35,675 bases of DNA from Oscillospiraceae bacterium (GTDB lineage: Bacteria > Bacillota > Clostridia > Oscillospirales > Acutalibacteraceae). Location of the stretch: positions 1 through 35,675 of the forward strand of contig CADABX010000017.1 in the NCBI GenBank assembly GCA_902786285.1, written 5' to 3'. The position numbers and the translations under genes were made by a program. The notes beneath the pieces were generated by a model that was not told where the DNA came from, ran no database searches, and saw only the letters and a program-made list of their open reading frames with translations. Shown piece after piece: positions 9,600-35,675 of this stretch. How positions within the stretch are numbered: the first letter of the stretch is position 1; each line of letters begins with the position of its first letter.

Positions 9600-11054
9600 T
9601 CATTCGGCGGCGTTCTGCTGCTCGTGCGCGGCACGCTGCAGCAAAACCTGTTCGTGGATGTCTTCCTTGGTCTTGCCGGTCAGCTTATAGAAGAAGAAGG
9701 GCACACCGGCAAGGAACATCATCAGGCCGTGGAAGATCGTGTAGAAGAACAAGAGCTTGATCTTGGAATCGAGCGATTGCGCCGTGTCGTCGACAAGGCC
9801 GGGAATATAGCCGATGATCGACTTCCAGCCGGTCGTCGGGTCGTCATACAGAATGCGCGGCGCCAGCGCACCGGCGATCGTGCCGCTGATAAACGTACCG
9901 ATACCGATGACAAACGGGAACGACGCGTCAAACCGCTTGCCTGTTTTGAACTCCAGATCCTCGAGCACGTCCGCCTGCAGCATGGAGGGCAGCAAATTGG
10001 AGGCGCCGAACTGCAGGCCGATCAGGAACAGGAACACGATAAACACGATTTGCAGCACCGGATTCGGACTCTTGAAATAGATGTAGCCGACGACAAATGC
10101 AAAAACATTGATCGTCACGGAATAGATGCCGCTGGCGATGTAGAGCACTTTGGAGTTGAACTTTTTGAGCAAAAAGTTGATGAGCAGCATACCCACGGCG
10201 GTGCCGATGCCGGTCGGCAGACCGAACAGCAAAAACTTGTCGGTGTCGCCCAGCAGCGCGCCGGCCATAAACACGCCCATGTAGGTGGCGATGCCGCGGA
10301 AGGATTTGAGAAATTCCGAAAGAATGATTGCCCACGCGTATTTGTTGGACAAAATCGCGCCGAAACCGGCGAGCGGATTCTTTTTTTCTGCGGTATAAGC
10401 CACCCGCTCGTGGACGGCCTTCATACCGATCAGCATCGCGAGGATGCCCACCACGCTGCACAGCGCAGAGCCGATGATAAACCGCGTGCCCTTGTCCTTG
10501 GCAAACAGCCCGATCACCAGCACGATCACCAGCGGCGCGGAGTTGCCCACAGCGGACACAATCCCGCGAAACGACATCACCGTGTCGCGCTCCTTAAGGT
10601 TCGGCGTCATCACCACGGCCACCATGTTGGTGGTGTTGCCGAAGTTGGTGGCAATCGACCACGCGACGGCGACGGTGACAAGATAGATCATCAGAATCGC
10701 GCCGGAAAACGATTTGGGTGTAATAAAGCTGAGCACCAGCAAAACGCCGGTGGGCACGGCGGCGATCAGCGCCAGCGGACGGAACTTGCCGGCCTTGCCG
10801 ATTTTGCGGCCGTCGATATACATCGCGATAAAAAAGTTGAGCACAAACGGGATCACGCTGATCAGCGTGTTATACAGCGACAGTCTGCCCGAGGGAATTT
10901 TCAGCACATTGACAAGGTAGTCGTTGCGATACGAGCCGATCATGCCGGTCATGTTCGTATAAAAGAACACGGCGACAAGATAGAGGATAAACTCGCTGCG
11001 TTTGATGAATTTCTGTTCTCCGGCGGCCGGAGCGGTCACGGTTGTGGTTTCCAT
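9600..11054 (-). CDS. MFS transporter of the GPH (glycoside-pentoside-hexuronide) type
   Basis: A 484-residue inner-membrane transporter with about 12 helices and several features of the MFS_2/GPH cation-sugar symporters: FFYTNMTGMIGSYRNDYLV near the N-terminus, an ERDTVMSFRGIVSAVGNSAPL block in the middle, and DVLEDLEFKTGKRFDASF in the second half, which parallels the D-x-x-x-x-x-TG-x-R loop of the family. The start is ATG 11054 with AAGGAGA upstream; an in-frame extension toward 11141 runs through the promoter and is rejected. It is the first gene of a four-gene minus-strand operon ending at 6364. Substrate unknown: no glycosidase or sugar kinase adjoins it. Confidence 0.88.
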   Translation of the reverse strand: METTTVTAPAAGEQKFIKRSEFILYLVAVFFYTNMTGMIGSYRNDYLVNVLKIPSGRLSLYNTLISVIPFVLNFFIAMYIDGRKIGKAGKFRPLALIAAVPTGVLLVLSFITPKSFSGAILMIYLVTVAVAWSIATNFGNTTNMVAVVMTPNLKERDTVMSFRGIVSAVGNSAPLVIVLVIGLFAKDKGTRFIIGSALCSVVGILAMLIGMKAVHERVAYTAEKKNPLAGFGAILSNKYAWAIILSEFLKSFRGIATYMGVFMAGALLGDTDKFLLFGLPTGIGTAVGMLLINFLLKKFNSKVLYIASGIYSVTINVFAFVVGYIYFKSPNPVLQIVFIVFLFLIGLQFGASNLLPSMLQADVLEDLEFKTGKRFDASFPFVIGIGTFISGTIAGALAPRILYDDPTTGWKSIIGYIPGLVDDTAQSLDSKIKLLFFYTIFHGLMMFLAGVPFFFYKLTGKTKEDIHEQVLLQRAAHEQQNAAE

Positions 11055-11128
11055 CGTTTTTTCTCCTTCTTTCTTATTGGGAACCTTACTGAAAACACAT
11101 CCTGCGCGTGCAGATATGCTTATTCTCA

Positions 11129-11137
11129 TTATAGCAG
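11129..11137 (-). promoter_or_regulatory. Extended -10 promoter for the MFS operon
   Basis: On the minus strand the sequence reads TGCTATAAT, an extended -10 with a perfect hexamer (TATAAT = 11134 to 11129). No good -35 is visible 16-18 bases upstream, as expected where TGn compensates. The leader to the ATG at 11054 is about 70 bases. Confidence 0.6.
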
Positions 11138-11192
11138 ACAATGCCGGAAATGCCTATCTTTTTTGCGCAAAAAATGAAAATTTTTCTCAAAT

Positions 11193-12899: not shown

Positions 12900-13370
12900 T
12901 TATGGTTTCAGCGTTTGCGCAAACGCAGCGCTCTCTTTGCGATAGTCGTTCTCCTTCGTCCGGATGGAGACCTGTCCGGCGGAGGGCTTTTCAAGCAGAT
13001 GGTCCATGGCCTTGATCTTCGCCATATAATCGTGCGCACCCATGTGCGTCACAACAAAATAAACGTCCGCCGGCAGCCGGTCGCGGTATTTCTGAATAAA
13101 GGCTCTGCCGATCGCGCAGGGCGCTTCCGCCCACACCGGCATCCCGATCAAAACGCGGTCATACGCTGTGAGATCGACGTTGCCTTTGATCGCCACATTC
13201 GGCAGCACACGCTTGACGCTTGCGAAGCACGCGCCCACATAGCCCAAAACGCCGCTTCGGTCTTTGCCGTCGGTGTAGGCGGCAAGGTCGGCGCCGATCG
13301 CTCCGGCAATCGTTTCCATCACTTCTTTGGTCTTGTTGGTTCTGGTGTAGTATAAGCAAAGTGTTTTCAT
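12900..13370 (-). CDS. Flavodoxin family protein
   Basis: A 156-residue cytosolic flavoprotein. The N-terminal MKTLCLYYTRTNKTKEVM forms the first strand and the FMN phosphate loop (YTRTNKT in place of the classical S/T-x-T-G-N-T). A second flavin-loop motif MPVWAEAPCAIGRAFI corresponds to the PVWWGTP region of long-chain flavodoxins, and a third strand VYFVVTHMGAHDY follows. It likely carries electrons or reduces small molecules; a partner cannot be named. The start is ATG 13370, after a GAGGTG site; an upstream in-frame codon at 13388 would swallow that site. It is the first gene of the cluster running to 11237. Confidence 0.87.
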   Translation of the reverse strand: MKTLCLYYTRTNKTKEVMETIAGAIGADLAAYTDGKDRSGVLGYVGACFASVKRVLPNVAIKGNVDLTAYDRVLIGMPVWAEAPCAIGRAFIQKYRDRLPADVYFVVTHMGAHDYMAKIKAMDHLLEKPSAGQVSIRTKENDYRKESAAFAQTLKP

Positions 13371-14742: not shown

Positions 14743-16122
14743 TTATTTCCTTGTCATCAATGTCACGCACTCCACATGCACCGTCCGCGGAAACATATCC
14801 ACGGCTACAGCCTCCTGCGCATGGTACCCCAGCTCCGCAAACCGCTTGCAGTCGCGCGCGAGCGTGGCCGGGTCGCAGGACACATAGACCACCCGGTCGG
14901 GCGCCATCGCCGCCACCGCGTCGATCACGTCGAGCGCGCAGCCCTTGCGCGGCGGGTCAAGCACAATCACGTCCGGCCGCAGCCCTTCCTGCTGCAGCCG
15001 CTTTGCCGCACCTGCGGCGTCGTCGCAGAAAAAGCGTGCGTTACCAATGCCGTTGCGTTTTGCGTTTTCCTTCGCGTTTTCAATCGCCGCGTCGATCACC
15101 TCCACGCCGATGATCTGCTTCGCTTTGTGCGCCATGGAAAGTCCAATCGTGCCCGCACCGCAATACAGATCCAGCACTGTTTCGCTGCCGGTGAGCGCGG
15201 CAAAGTCGGCGGCCTGTTTATAAAGCAGCTCGCAGCCTTGCGGGTTGACCTGATAAAACGACAGGGGAGAGATCCGAAACCGCAGTCCGCAAAGGATATC
15301 TTCGATCTCGTCTTTGCCAAACAGCGTGCGGCACTGCCGCCCGAGCACGACGTTCGTTTTGTCGGGATTTACGTTTAACACAACGCTGCACACGCTGCGG
15401 TCGGTTTCCAGAAGCGACCCGATCAGCGCGTCGGCGTGCGGCAATTCGTCGCGCAGCGTGACGAGGCACACCATCGTTTCGCCGGTCGCAAAGCCCTTGC
15501 GCAGATAGATGTGCCGCAAAAGCCCTGTGTGCGATTCTTCGTCATAGATACTGACGCCGTATGCCGCCGCCCAGCGTGCGATCACGTGAAGGATCGCTTC
15601 AAATGCCGGCGGCTGCAGCCTGCAGGCGCGGCAGTCGATGACGCGGTGGCTTTTTTTGGCGTAAAAGCCAATCAGCGTTTTGCCGTCCGCCGTCATCGCC
15701 ACGGGATACTGCGCCTTGTTGCGGTAGGCGGCGGTTTCGCCGGTGGAAAGAATCTCGCGGACCTCCACGTCCAGGCCGCCGATGCGTGTCAGCGCGTCCT
15801 GCACTTTTTGCTTTTTATACCGCAGCTCCGCGTCGTAGCTGAGGGCGCGGAACGAGCAGCCGCCGCAGCGGTCGGCCACAGCGCAGTCCGGCACGATCCG
15901 GTCTTTCGACGGCTTGACCACACGCCGGATAATGCCCACGGCGTAGGTGGGCTTCACTTTGATGATGTGCGCGTCAATCACGTCGCCGGGCACCGCGCCG
16001 TCCACAAAAACGGTAAACCCCGCGTAGCGGCCGATGCCGGTGCCGAGCGCGGAAAAGGCGGTGATTTCCAGACGGATGTCGTCGTTTTTGCCGACGGGTA
16101 GGGGATTGCTTGGTTTTTTCAT
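14743..16122 (-). CDS. rlmD: 23S rRNA (uracil-C5)-methyltransferase RlmD-type
   Basis: SAM-dependent enzyme that methylates uracil C5 in 23S rRNA (U1939 in RlmD; RlmCD of Bacillus handles two sites). The 459 residues contain an N-terminal TRAM RNA-binding domain (IRLEITAFSALGTGIGRYAGFTVFVDGAVPGD, about residues 15-50), a [4Fe-4S] cysteine set (CAVADRCGGC near 80), the SAM loop VLDLYCGAGTIGLS, and the catalytic block VVYVSCDPATLARD. The ATG at 16122 starts right after the LCP stop, and its GAGGACTGA ribosome site overlaps that stop, so the two are translationally coupled. It may modify two positions, as in other Gram-positives that have a single RlmCD. Confidence 0.93.
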   Translation of the reverse strand: MKKPSNPLPVGKNDDIRLEITAFSALGTGIGRYAGFTVFVDGAVPGDVIDAHIIKVKPTYAVGIIRRVVKPSKDRIVPDCAVADRCGGCSFRALSYDAELRYKKQKVQDALTRIGGLDVEVREILSTGETAAYRNKAQYPVAMTADGKTLIGFYAKKSHRVIDCRACRLQPPAFEAILHVIARWAAAYGVSIYDEESHTGLLRHIYLRKGFATGETMVCLVTLRDELPHADALIGSLLETDRSVCSVVLNVNPDKTNVVLGRQCRTLFGKDEIEDILCGLRFRISPLSFYQVNPQGCELLYKQAADFAALTGSETVLDLYCGAGTIGLSMAHKAKQIIGVEVIDAAIENAKENAKRNGIGNARFFCDDAAGAAKRLQQEGLRPDVIVLDPPRKGCALDVIDAVAAMAPDRVVYVSCDPATLARDCKRFAELGYHAQEAVAVDMFPRTVHVECVTLMTRK

Positions 16123-25767: not shown

Positions 25768-26470
25768 ATAATGCCCGCCGCACCACACAAAGCGGCGTGC
25801 TTTCGTGCGACTGGCCGAGCGGATTGTCGCGGAACACCTGCTTGCAAAAGGAAGTCGGGATACTGCTGCTGCTTTTGCCGAGCACCTCCACACCCAGATC
25901 GTTTGCGTCAATGATCACCACGCTGCACCCAACCAGACCCGAAAGCCGCCGCGCCACCCGGTCGGGATCCTTCGGCGCCTTTTTCGCATAGTGGTTATAC
26001 GGCGGGATCGTGCAATCGCACGGGCCGTCAATCGCGCGCGCCGCCGTGCCGGCAATGCGGTAAAACACACCGCGAACGCCGAAGGGCTTGGTCAGCGCGG
26101 AACACGCGGCGGCAAACAGCAGCCGCAAAACACCGACCTCCTCGATGGCAAGCTGCATCGTCCAGGGCGACCCGAGTCCGATCCCGTAGGGCGACCGGTA
26201 GACAAACCGGCTGAGCACTCTGGCGAGCAAAGACGGCTGGATCTCGCTGATATCCCACGCGCGGCCCTGACAGATGGCGACGATCTTTTCGCTGACAAAC
26301 AGGTAATCGCCCTTTTGAAGCGGCGTCGGCGTATAGCTTTGCATCACATCCTCGAGATTTTCCCCGCGCATAATCACATGCGTGCGGATCGGGAAACGGT
26401 CAAAACGGCCAAATGCCGTTTCGATCGCGCGCGCCTTGCCGCTGTTTGGGGAAAAGACAGAAAGATCCAT
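25766..26470 (-). CDS. CofE-like (coenzyme F420-0:L-glutamate ligase family) protein
   Basis: A 234-residue cytosolic protein that resembles the gamma-glutamyl ligase domain of CofE. Matching blocks are RTHVIMRGENLEDVM near residue 29, KGDYLFVSEKIVAICQGR (about 53-70), SRFVYRSPYGIGLGSPWTMQLAIEEVG, RGVFYRIAGTAARAIDGP and the TIPPYN motif, plus an SVVIIDANDLG segment. In actinobacteria and archaea the enzyme adds glutamate to F420-0. Firmicutes of this type are not known to make F420, and no cof gene adjoins it, so the true substrate is unknown. The ATG at 26470 follows AAAGGATG. It appears to be transcribed alone. Confidence 0.82.
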   Translation of the reverse strand: MDLSVFSPNSGKARAIETAFGRFDRFPIRTHVIMRGENLEDVMQSYTPTPLQKGDYLFVSEKIVAICQGRAWDISEIQPSLLARVLSRFVYRSPYGIGLGSPWTMQLAIEEVGVLRLLFAAACSALTKPFGVRGVFYRIAGTAARAIDGPCDCTIPPYNHYAKKAPKDPDRVARRLSGLVGCSVVIIDANDLGVEVLGKSSSSIPTSFCKQVFRDNPLGQSHESTPLCVVRRAL

Positions 26471-26564
26471 ATCTCGACATCCTTTGCTGTTTGATCCCCG
26501 TTAGTATGTCGCGCTTTGGCGAAAAAGATACGTTTTATGCGCCTCCAAATCCAGGCAAAAAAAG

Positions 26565-26587
26565 AAAACCGCCGCGGCGGTTTTTTG
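26565..26587 (-). terminator. Terminator after the small Cys-rich gene
   Basis: AAAACCGCC (26565-26573) and GGCGGTTTT (26576-26584) form a near-perfect palindrome with GC at its centre. On the minus strand it is followed by CTTTTTTTG. On the plus strand Ts also follow, but no plus-strand gene ends here. Confidence 0.8.
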
Positions 26588-26592
26588 TTATT

Positions 26593-26811
26593 TTACAGCG
26601 CAAAGTCCTCCGGACTGTAGTCGGACCCGAGCGTTTGACGCTGCGGCTTGCGTTTGAGCGGGTCGTATGTGTATTTGCTGCAGCAGTCGTCCGGCTGCAT
26701 CACCCCGTTGCGGGAACACAACACCTCGGTATCGCCCTCCACTGTGCTGCCGAAGGCGCAGTTAGCGCATTTTTTCGGGTAATCCTTGGCCCGCGTGAGC
26801 TTTTGTCTCAT
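26593..26811 (-). CDS. Small cysteine-rich protein, 72 residues
   Basis: Not recognised by name. It is soluble, with five cysteines: CANC near residue 14, a single Cys in VLCSRNG, and an adjacent pair in DDCCSKYTYDP. The spacing suggests a zinc or iron-sulfur site. The tail KRKPQRQTLGSDYSPEDFAL is polar. The start ATG 26811 has GAGGA upstream; an earlier in-frame codon at 26859 would run through that site. It lies downstream of the ylbJ-like gene on the same strand in the order ylbJ, this gene, but 63 bases separate them. Proteins of this shape occur in many gut Clostridia, to my recollection. Confidence 0.75.
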   Translation of the reverse strand: MRQKLTRAKDYPKKCANCAFGSTVEGDTEVLCSRNGVMQPDDCCSKYTYDPLKRKPQRQTLGSDYSPEDFAL

Positions 26812-26874
26812 AGCAAGTCCTCTTTCCTCTTTCAATCTTCCTGTATTGTAGCATACCAAGGCGAAAAATGCAAG

Positions 26875-27957
26875 CTATTTCGTGCGGCCGAGCCGGATCG
26901 AACAGCGCGAACCGACCAGCAGCAGCGCGCACATCATACACATGCAGAACGAGAGCAGATAGCTGTGCTGCACTGCCGGACGGACGGGGCTTTGCATCAT
27001 CGCACCGGCCGGGAGACGGACAACCGCCAGCAGCGCCCGGCAGCAAAGAAAGCTGCACCCGGCGTGGACGGCGCGAAAAAGAGAAAACTTCCAAAACGGC
27101 AGCTCCAGCGCACCGAGGAAGGGCGAAAGCTGACAATGGGTACAAACGCCGCCCCAGGCGACAGCCAGTGCGAGCACCGGCAGCGGCATAAGCGGCGACA
27201 ACAGCCGGCACGCGTTCGTCACCTCCAGCACCGCCGCCGCAAAGGGGAGCATCTGTTGCGGCAATCCCGACGCCTGCAGCAGCGCCAGCAGTCCGCCAAA
27301 CAGCGCAACAAACCCGCAAATGAGCACCATCGTCTGCACACTTTCCCGCACGGCGCGGTCCACGCTTTCGGCAACCGGCAGCGGCTGCACCTGCGGCGGT
27401 TCTGCGGTTGCCGCATCTGTCTGTTTCCCGAAGCAAAGCCGTGCGATGATCCCGGTCAGTACCGCGCCGGCAACGACCGACGCATAGAGCACCGCGCCGG
27501 CTTTTGCGCTTCCGAGCATCCCGGCGCCGACGGCGGAAACCGCAAACGACGGCCCTGGCCCGACGCAAAACAGCAGCAGACGCTGCGCCTGCTTTCGGGT
27601 GATGCTGCCGTCTTTCCAAAGATCCGTCGCCATCGACGCGCCGACCGGATAGCCGCCGATCATCGAAAATACGAATACGGCATTGCATACATCCGGCAAA
27701 CGCAGCACCCGTCGCATGAAAAATAACGAACGGCGGGTCAGCACCCGCTGCAGCCCGCGCAGCAAAAACAGCTTTGAAACGACCAGAAACGGCAAAATCG
27801 ATCCGATCAGCGACGAAAAACAAAGCTGCAGCCCCTGCGTTACGCCGAGCGACACCTGCTTCGGAAAAAGCAGCAGCAACACGGCGAGCGCGCCGAAACA
27901 CAGCGCCTGTATCAAAAACGAAACGCTTTCCAGCGAAAAAGCAGTTTGTTGTTTCAT
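26875..27957 (-). CDS. ylbJ: YlbJ-like sporulation integral membrane protein (nucleoside-recognition/gate family)
   Basis: A 360-residue membrane protein with about eight helices. Characteristic stretches: SSLIGSILPFLVVSKLFL, the conserved SMIGGYPVGASMATDLWKDGSITRKQAQRLLLFCVGPGPSF, and a C-terminal half with LICGFVALFGGLLALL. YlbJ (SpoVV) is needed for dipicolinate movement during spore maturation in Bacillus, which fits dpaA-dpaB in this same window. The ATG at 27957 is chosen over an in-frame GTG at 27966 because GCGGTGA supplies its ribosome site. It is divergent from yqfC-yqfD across an 83-base gap. Another gate-domain membrane protein, such as SpoIIIAF-unrelated YjiH types, is the alternative. 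Confidence 0.82.
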   Translation of the reverse strand: MKQQTAFSLESVSFLIQALCFGALAVLLLLFPKQVSLGVTQGLQLCFSSLIGSILPFLVVSKLFLLRGLQRVLTRRSLFFMRRVLRLPDVCNAVFVFSMIGGYPVGASMATDLWKDGSITRKQAQRLLLFCVGPGPSFAVSAVGAGMLGSAKAGAVLYASVVAGAVLTGIIARLCFGKQTDAATAEPPQVQPLPVAESVDRAVRESVQTMVLICGFVALFGGLLALLQASGLPQQMLPFAAAVLEVTNACRLLSPLMPLPVLALAVAWGGVCTHCQLSPFLGALELPFWKFSLFRAVHAGCSFLCCRALLAVVRLPAGAMMQSPVRPAVQHSYLLSFCMCMMCALLLVGSRCSIRLGRTK

Positions 27958-28325: not shown

Positions 28326-29498
28326 ATGTTAGAGTTTCCGCTGCTGCGCTGGTTGTTCGGCGTGCTGCTGTTTCGTGCGACGGGCGGTTTTCCGGCGCGG
28401 TTTTTAAATCTGTGCGACAGTGAAAACCTGCGCGTGTGGCATTTGCGGCAAGACAAAGGCGGCGTTTCAGCCCTTGTTTCTCCCCGTGACTACCGCCGGC
28501 TGCGGCTCGCCGCGCGGCAGGCGGGGATGACGGTCCGCTGTCTGGAAAAACGCGGACTGCCGTTCTTTTTGCATCAGAACCGGAACCGCACGGGACTGTT
28601 GGCGGGCGCCGTTGTCTGTGCGGTGCTCGCCGTGTTTTGCTCCGGTTTTTTGTGGACAGTGGAAACAACGGGCAACGAACGCGTCAGCGATTCCGAGATC
28701 CTTGCCGCCGCCGCGAAGATCGGCCTGTATCCCGGGGCAAAAAAACCGAAGGACAATGGCGAAGTGCTGGCGATCCGGCTGCAGCAGGAGCTGGACGGCG
28801 CGCTGTCGTGGGCGGCGGTGAACCTCATCGGTTCGCGCTGTGTGATCGAAGTGCGCGACGCCGAACGGCAAACGACGTTGCCCGACCCGCCATACGGCGC
28901 ACCGGCCGATCTGGTGGCCGACTTTGACGGGCAGATTCTCTCGCTCGAAGTCCACAGCGGCGTCAAGGCGAACGAAGTTGGCAACGGGGTCAAAAAGGGC
29001 GATCTTTTGATCAGCGGCACCCGCAAAGACCGCGAAGGAAAGCCCTATTACTACGAAGCGCGCGGCGTTGTGACGGCGCTGCATAACGACCGGCGCAGCA
29101 TGGAAGGCGCTTTGCGTCCCGCGCTTTACGCGCCGCGGGCGGTTCGCCGTGTCTGCGTTCTGCATCTTTGGCATCTGTCGATCCCGCTCGGTCTGTTTCC
29201 GCGCGGCAAAGACTATACGGCATACAGCCATACGTCCGCTTTGACGCTGCGCGGCGTCAAACTGCCGTTTGCGTTGGAAACCAAAACGCGGATCTATTGG
29301 GCAAAACAGCCGGCCGACGGCACCGGGTTGCTGTTTGATTCGTTCGTTCTTTCGTGTGCCGACGCCTACCGCAATACGCGGGTGCTTTCGGGCGAAGTGA
29401 CGGTGCAAACAAAAGGCGAAAGCTGCACCGTGATCCAGCAAAGCCGCGTGATCGACTTTATGGGCGTTTCGCGTGTGCTGCAGGCGAAAGAAGATTGA
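28326..29498 (+). CDS. yqfD: Sporulation protein YqfD
   Basis: A 390-residue sporulation protein. The N-terminal domain (about 1-90) carries FLNLCDSENLRVWHLRQDKGGVSALVSPRDYRRLRLAARQAGM, which matches the family. One membrane helix follows (about 96-113, LLAGAVVCAVLAVFCSGF), and then a large extracytoplasmic part with ETTGNERVSDSEILAAAAKIGLYPGAKKP and RCVIEVRDAERQ. The ATG at 28326 has GAAAGGAG upstream and lies 12 bases after yqfC. The phoH-like and ybeY genes that often follow in Clostridia are absent; a MATE gene with its own promoter follows instead. Confidence 0.92.
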   Translation: MLEFPLLRWLFGVLLFRATGGFPARFLNLCDSENLRVWHLRQDKGGVSALVSPRDYRRLRLAARQAGMTVRCLEKRGLPFFLHQNRNRTGLLAGAVVCAVLAVFCSGFLWTVETTGNERVSDSEILAAAAKIGLYPGAKKPKDNGEVLAIRLQQELDGALSWAAVNLIGSRCVIEVRDAERQTTLPDPPYGAPADLVADFDGQILSLEVHSGVKANEVGNGVKKGDLLISGTRKDREGKPYYYEARGVVTALHNDRRSMEGALRPALYAPRAVRRVCVLHLWHLSIPLGLFPRGKDYTAYSHTSALTLRGVKLPFALETKTRIYWAKQPADGTGLLFDSFVLSCADAYRNTRVLSGEVTVQTKGESCTVIQQSRVIDFMGVSRVLQAKED

Positions 29499-29523
29499 CA
29501 TTCCGTCGCGTTTCCTTTATAAT
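29495..29523 (+). promoter_or_regulatory. Sigma-A promoter for the MATE gene, overlapping the yqfD stop
   Basis: Perfect -35 TTGACA (29495-29500) and perfect -10 TATAAT (29518-29523) with a 17-base spacer. The yqfD stop codon TGA is inside the -35. No terminator separates yqfD from it. Confidence 0.88.
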
Positions 29524-29556
29524 AGACAGGATATTATCAAACAAAGGAATCATCTT

Positions 29557-30996
29557 ATGAAACTGACGGATTATCTCGGCGACCGGGGATTCTGGCGCGA
29601 TACTGTGCGTCTTGCGCTGCCGATCGCCGTACAGAATATGCTGGCCAGCTCCTTTTCGCTGATCGACACACTGATGGTCAGCCGTCTGGGCGATCTCGCG
29701 CTGTCCTCTGTGGGCATGGCAGGGCAGTGGAGCTGGTTTTTAAATCTCATCACCTTCGGCGTCGCGTCGGGCATGTCGGTCTTCGGCTCGCAATACCGCG
29801 GGGTGAAAAACCACACCGCCATGCGCCGCGTGCTCGGTTTGTCGCTGCTCATCATTTTGTGCGTATCTGCGGTGTTCACCGTGAGCGCTGCGGTGTTCCC
29901 AACCGGCATCATCTCCATCTTCAACAAGACGCCCGCCGTCATCGAAAGCGGCACCGCTTATCTCAAAATCGCCTGCATCTCCTATCCGGCGGTCGGGCTG
30001 ACGGTGATCTTGTCCACCTTTCTGCGCACGATCGAGCAGCCGCGTGTGCCGATGTATGTTTCGCTCTTTACCACCGCGCTCAACGCGTTTTTGAACTATA
30101 CGCTGATCTTCGGCCATTTCGGCGCGCCGGCGCTTGGGGTGCGCGGCGCCGCGGCGGCAACGTGTATTTCCTCGTGGACGGGCCCGGTGCTGCTGCTATT
30201 GATCTCCCTTGTGCAGCACAACCACATGGTGCGCCATCCGCGCGATCTGGTGTCGTTTACCCGGCAGGATGCTGCTTCGTTTGTCCGCCGTGCGTTTCCC
30301 GTGGTACTCAACGAAACGGTCTGGGCGCTCGGCACGCTGGCGCTGCAGTCGATCTATTCCAACATGGGATATGAATACTACGCTGCAGTTTCCATCGTCA
30401 AAACATTTATGGAGCTGTCGTTCGCGTTCATCGTCGGCCTCGGCAACGCCTGCGTCATCATGGTCGGCAAATCCGTCGGCGCGGGCAGAATCGAACAGTG
30501 CCTGCGCGACGCAAAGCGGTTTTCGCTGCTGGTGCCGCTGGGTACGGCCGGTATCGGTTTGCTGATGATCCTGCTGCGCCGGCCGCTGATCTCGATCTTC
30601 ACCTTCGGCGACAACATTTCCGATCTGACGATCCGGACCGCACTGTTCATCACGTTGTTTGTGGCGATCGAGCTGCCGCTGCGCAATATCCCGTATATCC
30701 AGATCGTCGGCATCTACCGCTCCGGCGGCGACACACTGTACGGGATGCTGTGCGACGTGGGAACCTTGTGGGTGTTTGCCGTGCCGGTCGCGTTTCTGGC
30801 CGCCAACGTGTGGCATCTGCCGTTCGTCTGGGTCTATATGCTCGCGTATCTGACGGAGGATCTGCCGAAGGTGGTCATCTGCCTGCAGCGCTTCTTTTCC
30901 AAAAAATGGCTCAAGCCCGTCACTCCAGAGGGCATCGAGGGGCTTGCGCAGTGGCGACGCCAACACGAAAAGCATAAAATACAGGAGGGAACCTGA
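29557..30996 (+). CDS. MATE family multidrug/metabolite exporter
   Basis: A 479-residue membrane protein with about 12 helices, an Na+- or H+-driven antiporter of the NorM/DinF type. It starts with the family's usual PIAVQNMLASSFSLIDTLMVSRLGD and repeats the pattern in the second half (FPVVLNETVWALGTLALQSIYSNMG, GNACVIMVGKSVGAG). The C-terminus is polar and basic. The ATG at 29557 has AAAGGAA upstream, and an in-frame extension back to 29473 overlaps yqfD. It is the first gene of a likely operon with the GH3 gene, which starts one base after its stop codon. Confidence 0.93.
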   Translation: MKLTDYLGDRGFWRDTVRLALPIAVQNMLASSFSLIDTLMVSRLGDLALSSVGMAGQWSWFLNLITFGVASGMSVFGSQYRGVKNHTAMRRVLGLSLLIILCVSAVFTVSAAVFPTGIISIFNKTPAVIESGTAYLKIACISYPAVGLTVILSTFLRTIEQPRVPMYVSLFTTALNAFLNYTLIFGHFGAPALGVRGAAAATCISSWTGPVLLLLISLVQHNHMVRHPRDLVSFTRQDAASFVRRAFPVVLNETVWALGTLALQSIYSNMGYEYYAAVSIVKTFMELSFAFIVGLGNACVIMVGKSVGAGRIEQCLRDAKRFSLLVPLGTAGIGLLMILLRRPLISIFTFGDNISDLTIRTALFITLFVAIELPLRNIPYIQIVGIYRSGGDTLYGMLCDVGTLWVFAVPVAFLAANVWHLPFVWVYMLAYLTEDLPKVVICLQRFFSKKWLKPVTPEGIEGLAQWRRQHEKHKIQEGT

Positions 30997-30997
30997 A

Positions 30998-33447
30998 ATG
31001 AGCATCCGTAAAACCATCACCACCAAAGCCAACCGCCTGATCTCGATGGCGGTCAATTCCGTGGCGCAAAAGGGGAGCGAACGGTTTCTCGGCGCCGAAA
31101 GCGCCGACGCGCTGCGTCTGCTTGCGCGGCAAATGGGCGCCGAAGGCATCGTCCTTTTGAAAAACGAAAAACAAACCCTGCCGCTGCCGAAAGACAAAAC
31201 GGTCAGCGTGTTCGGCCGCGTGCAGGTCGACACGTTCTATGTCGGCTACGGCTCCGGCGGCGACGTCAACGCACCGTATAAGGTGAGCATCCTGGAAGGT
31301 CTGCGCAATTGCGAAAAGATTCAGATCAACGAAGAGCTTGCGGCGGTCTATGAGGACTGGTCGAAAAACCATCCGGTCGATGAGGGCTACTGGGGCCACT
31401 GGCCGATGTGCTTTGACGAGATGCCCGTGAGCGAAAAACTGATCCGGCAATCCGCCGCAAAAGGCGACACCGCGCTGGTCGTTATCGGCCGCGCCGCCGG
31501 CGAAGACCGCGAAAACACGCTGACAGAAGGCAGCTATTATCTGACCAAGGAAGAAAGAGCCCTGCTCGACGCGGTAACGGCGGCGTTCGACAAGGTCACC
31601 GTGCTGCTAAACGTCGGCTCCATTCTGGACATGCACTGGCTCGAAGATTACGGCGACGCCATCTCCGCCGTGTGCTATATCTGGCAAAACGGCATGGAGA
31701 CCGGCAACAGTGTGGCCGACGTGCTGTGCGGCGACGTGACGCCGAGCGGCTGCCTTTGCGACACCATTGCCCGCCGCTATGAGGACTACCCATCCTCGGC
31801 GCATTTCGGCGGCAAGGCGTATAACGAATACGCCGAAGACGTCTTTGTGGGCTACCGCTTTTTCGAAACCTTCGCGCCCTCACGTGTGCTGTTTCCGTTT
31901 GGCTTCGGCCTGAGCTATACCACATTTTCCATCAGCGTCACCCAGACGCGCATCAGCGGCGACGACTGCCGCGTGTGGGTCAAGGTCAAAAACACCGGCA
32001 ACACCTACAGCGGCAAACAGACCGTGCAGCTCTATCTGCAAAAGCCGCAGGGCGTACTCTCCCAACCGGAACGGATGCTCGTTGCGTTTGAAAAAACCCG
32101 GACGCTGCAGCCGGGCGAAGAGGAAAAGCTCTGCCTGCACTGCAAGCTTTCCGATTACGCGTCCTATGACGATACGGGCCTGAGCGGACACACCAGCGCG
32201 TGGATCTATGAAGCGGGGGAATACAATCTTTATGTCGGCGAAGACGTGCGCTCCGCGGCGTTTTGCCGCTCGTTTACCGTGCGTGCGCTGCAGGTGGTGC
32301 GCCAATGCAGCCAGATCTGCGCGCCCGATCCCAATCATCCGTTTGAACGGCTGGTGCTGCGCAAAAACGAAAACGGCGACAACGTCCCGATGACCCAGCG
32401 CGCACCGACGATGAAAATCTCGCTGCGCGATCGGATTTTGCGCAATTTGCCGCAGGATCTTGAGCTGACCGGCGACTGTGGGATCAAATTGCAGGACGTC
32501 AAGGAAGGCAAAGCGACGCTCGAAGCGTTCACGGCGCAGCTCAGCGTAGACGAGCTCGAAGCGATCACCCGCGGCGACTACAGTATGGACAGTCCGCTCG
32601 GCGCCAAAGGCAACGCCGGCGCCATCGGCGGCGTGCTGCCCTCGCTGCGCGAAAAGGGCGTGCCGGCTGTGATTACAACCGACGGCCCGAGCGGTATCCG
32701 ATTGTCGGAAACCTGCTCTCTGTTGCCAAACGGCGCCGCGCTCGCGTGCTCATTTAACCGTCTGCTGGTCCAAACGCTGTTTGCTGCCCTCGCCCAGGAG
32801 ATGGCATCGCGCGGCAGCGATATCCTGCTCGCGCCCGGCATGAACATCCACCGCAATCCGCTTTGCGGCCGCAACTTCGAATACTTTTCGGAAGACCCGT
32901 GCCTGAGCGGTCTGATCGCGTCGAGCTATGTGCAGGGCATTCAGTCCGGCGGCCTGTCGGCGTGTCCCAAGCATTTTTGCTGCAACAATCAGGAATTCAA
33001 CCGCACCCACAACGACTCCCGCGTGAGCGAACGCGCGCTGCGTGAGATCTATCTCAAGGGCTTTGCAAGGGCTTTGAGCTTTGCGTGCGCGAGGCGCAGC
33101 CGCACAATATCATGACCTCCTACAACAAGGTCAACGGTGTTTGGAGCCACTATAACTACGATCTTTGCACCACGGTGCTGCGCAAGGAATGGGGCTTCCT
33201 CGGCGCGGTGATGACCGACTGGTGGATGCGCAAGGACGAATCCCACGAATTCCCCGGCGTCCACGACCAGGGCTACCGTGTGCGCGCCGGCGTCGATGTG
33301 CTGATGCCGGGCGGTGCCAGAGGCGGCAAACGCAAGCCCGACGGCACGCTGAAAAAGAGCATGAAAGCCAAAGACGGCGTCACGCTCGGCGAACTGCAAA
33401 GCTGCGCCATGCATGTGCTGAAAATGGCGATGAATTATCTTGATTAA
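30998..33447 (+). pseudogene. Domain-permuted GH3 beta-glucosidase broken by an 11-bp duplication
   Basis: Glycoside hydrolase family 3 enzyme, by relatives a beta-glucosidase. The order is reversed, as in the Ruminococcus albus and Butyrivibrio enzymes: a GH3_C-type alpha/beta domain first (about residues 60-300, with RAAGEDRENTLTEGSYYL carrying the acid/base region), a fibronectin-like domain (about 310-420), then the GH3_N-type barrel (VITTDGPSGIRL, APGMNIHRNPLCGRNFEYFSEDP, CPKHF). CAAGGGCTTTG is tandemly repeated at 33055-33076. The reading frame then fails and stops at 33113-33115 after 705 residues. Without one copy the protein would read on (KGFELCVREAQPHNIMTSYN) to 33447, 812 residues, including the nucleophile Asp of VMTDW (codon 33217-33219). 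The present product lacks that Asp. The ATG at 30998 has AGGAGGG. A sequencing or assembly error is the main alternative. Confidence 0.88.
33055..33076 (+). repeat. 11-bp perfect tandem duplication (CAAGGGCTTTG x2)
   Basis: Copies at 33055-33065 and 33066-33076 are identical. Eleven bases shift the frame by two; deleting either copy restores the GH3 frame. Replication slippage would make or reverse it. Confidence 0.95.
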
Positions 33448-33477
33448 GTCGATAGTCAATCGCCGTTATTTGACAGC

Positions 33478-33504
33478 GAAAGCCGCCCGTTCGGGCGGCT
33501 TTTC
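33478..33504 (+). terminator. Terminator after the GH3 gene
   Basis: GCCGCCCG (33482-33489) pairs with CGGGCGGC (33492-33499) and is followed by TTTTCT. On the minus strand it may also end dpaB, with a weaker T-run. Confidence 0.88.
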
Positions 33505-33506
33505 TA

Positions 33507-33534
33507 TGCACTGCGCACTGTGCACTGTGCACTA
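33507..33534. repeat. Four tandem heptamers TGCACTG
   Basis: TGCACTG, CGCACTG, TGCACTG and TGCACTA lie end to end from 33507, overlapping the stop codon end of dpaB at 33532. They have the same 7-base unit length as the inverted repeats at 2839-3106 but a different sequence. Confidence 0.8.
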
Positions 33535-34104
33535 GAGAACTATCGGCGTCAACTGCCGTCCCTCGAGCGCGGCTTCCACGGCGTCTTTCGTCCGTTCAAA
33601 CAAACACACCATCGAGCGCGGCTTGCCCTGCGGCGCGTCCTGTGCCATCGGCAAAAAGTACACGTTGCGCATCGGCAAAAGCGTGCCGAGCGACCGCGCG
33701 GAGCCGGACAGCGCGTCGTTGGTGGAAACGCCGAGCAAAACGGGCCGTTCGGCGCGCAGCTGCGATTTGACAGCGAGCGTTACGGGCGTGTCGTAGATCC
33801 CGGCGGCAAGCTTGCCGAGCGTGTTGCCCGTGCAGGGCGATACCACCAAAAGATCGCACAGCTTTTGCGGCCCGATCGGTTCGGCGTCCGCAATCGTACA
33901 GATCACCTTGCGGTTGGTGCGTGCGTGCAGCTCACGGCGAAAATCCTCCGCCTTGCCAAACCGTGTGTCAATCGAAACGGCGTTGAACGACATCATCGGC
34001 AATACATGATAGCCGTGATCCAGTAAAATCTGCATCTGTTCGATGCTTTTGCGAAATGTGCAAAACGAGCCGGTCAGCGCATAGCCGATAACGGGCATAT
34101 CCAT
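33532..34104 (-). CDS. dpaB: Dipicolinate synthase subunit B
   Basis: A 190-residue flavoprotein-like subunit that with DpaA makes dipicolinic acid from dihydrodipicolinate-pathway intermediates in the mother cell, for spore heat resistance. It shows the family start PVIGYALTGSFCTFRKSIEQM and flavin-type loops VVSPCTGNTLGKLAAGIYDTPVTLAVK and VLLGVSTNDALSG. The ATG at 34104 has GGAGG eight bases upstream; a GTG at 34113 and ATG at 34110 are too close to it. It lies 33 bases after dpaA, with a palindrome in the gap, and is presumably co-transcribed. Confidence 0.94.
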   Translation of the reverse strand: MDMPVIGYALTGSFCTFRKSIEQMQILLDHGYHVLPMMSFNAVSIDTRFGKAEDFRRELHARTNRKVICTIADAEPIGPQKLCDLLVVSPCTGNTLGKLAAGIYDTPVTLAVKSQLRAERPVLLGVSTNDALSGSARSLGTLLPMRNVYFLPMAQDAPQGKPRSMVCLFERTKDAVEAALEGRQLTPIVL

Positions 34105-34118
34105 AATCATCACCTCCC

Positions 34119-34137
34119 GGGCAGCCGGTCCGGCTGC
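34119..34137. repeat. Palindrome between dpaA and dpaB
   Basis: GGCAGCCGG and CCGGCTGCC flank a single central base. There is no T-run, so termination is unlikely; it sits just before the dpaB ribosome site and could affect RNA stability or subunit ratio. Confidence 0.65.
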
Positions 34138-34956
34138 CTAAGTAGCGTCGATGCAATGTTTCATCGCTTCTGCCGCCGCCTGTGGACAAAACCGTCCGGG
34201 CAGCCCTTTGCCGTCGATATAGCACAGTCCGCACTGTAAAGCGGCATCCTTTTCAGCGCCGAACGGTGCACTCGCAAGCTCCAGATAGACGCCGCCCGGT
34301 TTCGCGCCGGACAAACTCTTTGCGTCCAGCCACCGAGCCGGGATCGTGTTGATAAGCACGTCAAACCGCCCGATCGAGCGTTTGGCTTCGTCCGGTGCAA
34401 TCGCGCCGCAGCCGGAGTTTTCAGCTCTTTTTCGCTGCGATGCGCTTCTGGCGGCAACGGTACACCGGCACCCGACACCGCAAAGCCACTTTGCCGTTTC
34501 CTGCCCGACGTTGCCATATCCCGCGATCAGCACCCGCTGCTGCGGCAAATATTGCGCCGTGTTTTCGAGCAGCAGCCGCAGCGCACCCTGTGCGGTCAGC
34601 GCCGCGTTGAAGCGCACAAACTGTGCGCAGTCCAGAAAATCCGTATATGAAATGCCGGCCGCTTGCAGCGTTTCCCGCTGGTTTGCGGAAAATCCGCCGC
34701 CGAAAACCCGCTGCCGCGGCGAAAGAAGCCGGAATACCGTCTGCCACGGCGTCTGCGACCGGTCGCCGGTGATTGTTTCGCCGCGCGAGACCGGCGTTGG
34801 CAAAACGAGGATGCCTACCTGTTCGATCGCTGTGCGCAGCGCGTCGCCGTCGGGCAGGGCAGGGAGATGCCGCACCGGGCGGCCGTCGGTTTCCATCAGG
34901 CGGCAAAGCTGTTCGTTTCGCGCGTCGCCGCCGAGGATCAGAATCGTTTCTTTCAT
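34138..34956 (-). CDS. dpaA: Dipicolinate synthase subunit A
   Basis: A 272-residue NAD(P)-binding subunit of dipicolinate synthase (SpoVFA). The N-terminal part reads ETILILGGDARNEQLCRLM; the nucleotide-binding motif is VLIAGYGNVGQETAKWL (GxGxxG, about residues 147-163), followed by TVAARSASQRKRA. The C-terminal part has DVLINTIPARWLD and GGVYLELASAPFG, both usual in the family. The ATG at 34956 follows an AAGGAGG site; the longer open frame to 35139 overlaps murC and is rejected. First gene of the dpaA-dpaB pair and divergent from murC. Confidence 0.94.
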   Translation of the reverse strand: MKETILILGGDARNEQLCRLMETDGRPVRHLPALPDGDALRTAIEQVGILVLPTPVSRGETITGDRSQTPWQTVFRLLSPRQRVFGGGFSANQRETLQAAGISYTDFLDCAQFVRFNAALTAQGALRLLLENTAQYLPQQRVLIAGYGNVGQETAKWLCGVGCRCTVAARSASQRKRAENSGCGAIAPDEAKRSIGRFDVLINTIPARWLDAKSLSGAKPGGVYLELASAPFGAEKDAALQCGLCYIDGKGLPGRFCPQAAAEAMKHCIDAT

Positions 34957-34974
34957 CGGAAACCTCCTTCGCGT

Positions 34975-35003
34975 CATCCTATGATCGGAAAAATATTTCG
35001 TGA
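34975..35003 (-). promoter_or_regulatory. Possible sigma-K promoter for dpaA-dpaB
   Basis: On the minus strand TCACG (35003 to 34999) is followed 16 bases later by CATAGGATG (34983 to 34975), close to the sigma-K pattern AC-N16-CATAnnnTA. The start site would fall inside or next to the ribosome site, an unusually short leader, which lowers confidence. Confidence 0.35.
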
Positions 35004-35008
35004 ATGTA

Positions 35009-35037
35009 TTTACAGACGGCGAAAAAAGGAATATAAT
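35009..35037 (+). promoter_or_regulatory. Sigma-A promoter for murC
   Basis: TTTACA (35009-35014) and perfect TATAAT (35032-35037) are 17 bases apart. The start would be about 35044, 25 bases before the start codon. Confidence 0.8.
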
Positions 35038-35068
35038 AATATGAACTTTTTGCAAGGAGCATAAGGAC

Positions 35069-35675
35069 ATGCAACAATTTGACAAACTTTTAGAATCGGT
35101 CAAGCATGTGCATTTCATCGGCATCGGCGGCTCGGGCATGTGTCCGCTGGCCGAAATTTTGCACGACTGGGGTTATACAGTGACAGGCTCGGACAACAAC
35201 CCGGGCGACAATATCGACCATCTGCGTGCGCTCGGCATCGACGTGACGATCGGCCAAAGGGCGGAAAACCTTCTCGGCGCGGAGCTGATCGTCTATACCG
35301 CAGCGATTTTGCCCGACAACCCGGAGCTGGTTGCGGCAAAGGAAGGCGACATCCCGGCGGTGGAACGCGCGGTGCTGTTCGGCGCGATCACCCGGCGCTA
35401 CAACAACTGCATCGGCGTTTGCGGCACCCACGGCAAAACGACCGTGACGGCCATGCTCACCCAGGTGCTCGTGATGGCGAAAAAGGATCCCACGGCGGTC
35501 ATCGGCGGCGTGCTGCCGCTCATCGGCTCGCACGGCCTGTCGGGCAAAAGCGACACGATGGTGTGCGAAGCGTGCGAATTCAACGACCACTATCTGGAAC
35601 TGTCGCCCGACGTGGCGGTGATCCTCAACGTCGACGAAGACCATCTCGAATACTTCAAAAATCTCGACAACATCA
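35069..35675 (+). CDS. murC: UDP-N-acetylmuramate--L-alanine ligase (3' truncated by window)
   Basis: Cytosolic ATP-dependent ligase that adds L-alanine to UDP-MurNAc, the first step of the peptidoglycan stem peptide. The first 202 residues are visible. The N-terminal nucleotide-binding motif HFIGIGGSGMCPLAEIL is at about residues 14-31, the ATP loop GVCGTHGKTTVTAML near 117-131, and the Mur-specific region ending VILNVDEDHLEYF near 190-200. The ATG at 35069 follows an AAGGAG site at 35055. It has its own promoter and is divergent from dpaA. The frame is open to the window edge. Confidence 0.95.
   Translation, partial: MQQFDKLLESVKHVHFIGIGGSGMCPLAEILHDWGYTVTGSDNNPGDNIDHLRALGIDVTIGQRAENLLGAELIVYTAAILPDNPELVAAKEGDIPAVERAVLFGAITRRYNNCIGVCGTHGKTTVTAMLTQVLVMAKKDPTAVIGGVLPLIGSHGLSGKSDTMVCEACEFNDHYLELSPDVAVILNVDEDHLEYFKNLDNI

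Follow-up and report, generated by a model that had tools for sequence, protein, structure and literature searches.

As reported previously, GlyA1 (PDB 5k6l) is a ruminal GH3 beta-glycosidase whose domains follow the permuted order C-domain, FnIII, N-domain, and in the accessible text of PMC5104943 the activity of its nucleophile mutant D709A was below detection. BrGH3A, a rumen GH3 beta-glucosidase of 814 residues that its authors put in Spirochaetales, has the same domain order (PMC11233000). The beta-glucosidase of PDB 5wug comes from Paenibacillus barengoltzii according to the accessible text of the same source. All three enzymes are intact. For bacteria more generally, reversible frameshift indels and scars have been described, in which a frame-shifting indel silences a gene and could reverse (PMC8339072). 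The literature on such breaks, covered by general topic, provided general comparisons only.

Here, a GH3 gene was analyzed in a window of 35,675 nucleotides, the whole stretch of DNA under study, from the draft genome of an Oscillospiraceae bacterium (contig CADABX010000017.1). Its features lie on the forward strand. The truncated reading frame (30998-33115, 705 residues) contains a GH3 C-domain (PF01915, residues 51-307), a fibronectin type III-like domain (PF14310, residues 342-416), and the first part of the GH3 barrel (PF00933, residues 553-693). The rest of the barrel lies in a detached open frame at 33067-33447, where PF00933 was matched at residues 2-81. The order C-domain, FnIII, N-domain is that of the permuted GH3 subfamily, and the gene is of the same type as GlyA1 and BrGH3A. 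Neither part reached an NCBIfam equivalog cutoff, each being only a piece of what the full-length models target. The label "glucosidase" is therefore a family-level assignment for a predicted GH3 enzyme.

Both catalytic positions of GlyA1 are conserved in the gene (PMC5104943). The acid/base residue Glu143 of GlyA1 aligns to Glu169 in the C-domain (codon 31502-31504), which is retained in the truncated product. In an ungapped alignment, the nucleophile Asp709 of GlyA1 pairs with residue 51 of the 3' part, whose codon (33217-33219) lies beyond the premature TGA at 33113-33115; the nucleophile is thus absent from the translated product. The counterparts of Tyr677 and Trp710 of GlyA1 are lost as well. 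Unlike GlyA1, which also has an additional domain at its C terminus, the window gene stops before its nucleophile. Given the loss of activity in D709A and the position of the nucleophile codon beyond the stop, the truncated product is very probably inactive.

The break is caused by CAAGGGCTTTG, an 11-bp unit present in 2.0 exact copies head to tail at 33055-33076. The first copy occupies 33055-33065 and the second 33066-33076, and either of them may be the extra one. A further copy of the unit is located at 15489-15499, on the other strand of the window. Compared with the 814-residue counterpart in the closest relative, the truncated product has 689 native residues followed by a foreign tail of 16 residues from the shifted frame (33065-33112), and 125 residues are missing. 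The initial annotation had described an exact tandem repeat at this site, a frame from the ATG at 30998 that stops at 33113-33115, and an open frame continuing to 33447 with the nucleophile codon beyond the stop. All of this was confirmed, and its reading of a GH3 gene disrupted by the duplication was supported by the Pfam domains and by the open, single-unit gene of the closest relative. In the predicted structure of this intact relative, which was too weak for a fold search (mean pLDDT of 64.3, pTM of 0.73), the break falls inside the helix at 678-696, before the strands at 700-703 and 733-736. Programmed frameshifting was considered and rejected, as no XXXYYYZ slippery heptamer was found in 32998-33115.

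The premature TGA overlaps an ATG at 33112-33114 (ATGA), and this ATG shares the reading frame of the 3' part; translation from it would yield a product of 111 residues carrying the nucleophile. A terminating ribosome could thus restart at 33112, and the 705- and 111-residue pieces could assemble into a split enzyme. If this were true, a small duplication could convert one gene into a two-gene operon. However, the only purine-rich motif found upstream of this ATG was GAGG, 17 bases away, and twelve native residues would be missing between the two pieces. In addition, the Met-Thr pair behind the ATGA was invariant in a ten-sequence alignment of relatives, so the overlap would arise as a by-product and no selection is needed to explain it. 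Restart followed by assembly is thus highly improbable, and it is equally hard to credit that the duplication made two coupled genes yielding a working two-chain GH3 enzyme.

The closest relative was found in the metagenome-assembled genome RUG10646 (Ruminococcaceae, a relative among rumen bacteria), at a locus designated L006, with 97% protein identity. Here, the 11-bp unit occurred once, and the gene, which begins at the same start as in the window, was open over 814 residues. Among solved structures, the intact L006 protein matched best with 5wug (9.2e-221) and 5k6l (phmmer, 8.6e-192). The 5wug protein is longer than the window gene product (955 residues in the chain). BrGH3A equals L006 in length and, like it, has no extra C-terminal domain; it is likened to the window gene by description (PMC11233000). 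In an alignment of 28425-35551, the 11-bp insertion was the sole indel between the window and L006 from 30998 to 33442. After 33442, the 3' ends of the two genes diverge (34-base gap).

The gene was compared with relatives at 104 loci, of which 80 came from a first set and 24 from a second set of 25, the window's own locus (L086) being left out; two of the 104, L006 and L087, are one contig. Both parts of the gene lay in one frame in 101 loci and in different frames in none, and 3 loci were cut by contig ends. Among the genus loci, a closed frame with the TDW motif was found in 23 of 24, and the remaining one (L107) was cut by a contig end. The two-copy array (at most 2 mismatches) was present in 1 of 34 genus genomes, which was the source genome itself.

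These results bear on a reversible on/off switch, or contingency locus, in which the copy number would flip by slippage, as the initial annotation had suggested. Recombination or slippage between the two exact, adjacent copies could restore a single unit, and the lost 3' part is still open. However, the array is confined to the source genome and has only two copies with no hairpin signal, and a locus out of frame was not seen in any assessable relative. A repeat tract with varying copy number among relatives, as expected for a phase-variable gene, was not found. The locus resembles the reversible indels of PMC8339072 in that a frame-shifting indel silences a gene and could reverse; unlike the cases in the accessible text of that source, it shows neither a second indel nor a polymorphism. 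Any duplication of this kind could revert by slippage, and nothing here indicates that reversion occurs or is selected. The switch was thus left without support, and we consider it very unlikely.

An ordinary, recent loss-of-function mutation in one of several GH3 genes is the probable explanation. In this reading, 11 bp encoding part of a barrel helix in the permuted-domain GH3 enzyme were duplicated in tandem, probably by a replication error, with a replication slip or template switch as the likely origin, and the duplication shifted the frame. We do not propose a function for the disrupted gene. The source genome has other GH3 matches in open frames of 872, 826, and 689 residues, so the loss may be tolerated.

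The exact 11-bp array is more than chance. In 40 simulations with an order-3 Markov model, 0.025 exact tandem duplications with periods of 11 to 60 were expected per window. To place the array in its genome, exact tandem duplications with periods of 8 to 60 were surveyed over 275,675 bases in all; the window contained 2, and the other 24 came from 12 additional 20-kb stretches of its genome. Five of these 26, including the array at 33055-33076, had a period of at least 11. Two of the five had a period of 12, which keeps the frame, and lay under long open frames; two others (periods of 11 and 21) were not spanned by an open frame of at least 150 residues. At L116:14442-14484 (G000:C2), an exact 11-bp array of 3.9 copies was observed, with no spanning open frame of at least 150 residues.

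The junction of the array has no slack, as the base preceding the unit is not the same as the last base of the unit, and the base following the array is not the same as the first base of the unit. Thus, no preexisting microhomology accounts for the slip. A hairpin hot spot was rejected, as the DNA at the site folded no better than shuffled sequences (z of -0.30 on one window strand, -0.47 on the other, and 0.67 for L006). The two-copy junction gave 0 matches against viral contigs, which are uninformative for a chromosomal gene.

The age of the break was approached through the substitutions relative to L006. The 5' part had a Ka/Ks of 0.055 (Ks of 0.225) and the 3' part a Ka/Ks of 0.088 (Ks of 0.231); rows L091, L095, and L097 were left out of this comparison. 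Changes were polarized by a simple majority of three relatives (L088, L089, and L090), which left 5 amino acid and 16 silent differences ambiguous. The window lineage had 8 amino acid and 39 silent changes and the L006 lineage 10 and 49 (Fisher P = 1). Selection is thus not relaxed in the window lineage. If the gene had been unconstrained for 5% of this lineage, 14.0 amino acid changes would be expected, and the probability of 8 or fewer is 0.06; for 10%, the expectation is 20.1 and P is 0.002. When all ambiguous changes were assigned to the window, P for 10% became 0.06, so that the upper limit on the age rises from about 5% of the lineage to about 10%.

Given the unrelaxed ratio of amino acid to silent changes, the break either is very young, dating from within the last 5 to 10% or so of the window lineage, or does not exist in the organism and reflects the assembly; it may also be a variant among strains. 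The initial annotation had called the event recent because the lost 3' part had gathered no stop codons. Its recency stands, on the ratio of amino acid to silent changes. The lack of stops is weak as an argument: only 42 of the 1,134 possible single changes in the 3' part create one, so few stops would be expected even if the gene had been dead since the split.

The sequence is without a trace of decay, which fits an assembly error as well as a young mutation. In the former case, the true sequence would have one unit and the gene would be intact. Unrelaxed selection fits such an artifact, and the source genome is a draft of 67 contigs with 90.32% completeness. Furthermore, many putative bacterial pseudogenes are described as assembly errors in the accessible text of PMC11017572. 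Frame breaks were counted against G027, whose contig C99 was taken as one with L006. The comparison covered 52 reading frames of G027 with at least 200 residues that matched the window or three further stretches of the source genome at 75% identity or more across 60% or more of their length. The load was low, with 3 of 52 frames matching in more than one frame: the GH3 gene itself, a frame that overlaps the reverse-strand frame 9600-11141 and is probably not a gene, and one frame in L115. Other indels not divisible by three were present in putative window frames, and most of them were close pairs that cancel. Frame breaks are thus not widespread in the assembly, although a single error may be present. 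Moreover, an exact 11-bp duplication is a less usual type of error than single-base errors. On balance, an error in the draft consensus has a minor but real chance of being the answer, and we infer that the event was biological. A minority strain variant carrying the duplication is a further reading of the same data. Taken as a mutation, the locus would neatly capture a gene loss at a very early stage in a multicopy glycosidase family. It also calls for caution, as a single draft genome does not allow a loss of this kind to be told apart from an error of assembly.

Upstream of the GH3 gene and separated from it by a single base between stop and start, a MATE-type transporter gene is open at 29473-30996 and matches PF01554, in agreement with the initial annotation, which had called it intact. 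Among the 104 loci, 9 had a MATE match next to the GH3 gene, a count in which L006 and L087 are one contig and which is limited by short flanks. The other neighbors in the window are YqfD upstream and, downstream, a DpaA_N protein and a flavoprotein, which we take to be DpaB. At L089 (G018:C116), YqfD is directly upstream of the GH3 gene; MATE was unmatched in this locus and seems absent there. Compared with window positions 33448-33531, L006 has about 490 extra bases between the GH3 and flavoprotein genes, and these contain a frame at 5123-5575 of L006 that looks helix-turn-helix-like by eye.

Elsewhere in the window, an open frame at 26413-27726 had no Pfam match and, at less than 75% identity, did not enter the G027 comparison. 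In G027, the corresponding sequence switches frame near residue 55, next to a difference of 31 bases, and the true start may lie further downstream. Positions 13045-13316 of L115 (G000:C2) contain a dispersed repeat, about 270 bases long, with many matches in G027. Its ends (about 13045-13078 and about 13284-13316) match in reverse too, as in a MITE-like element.
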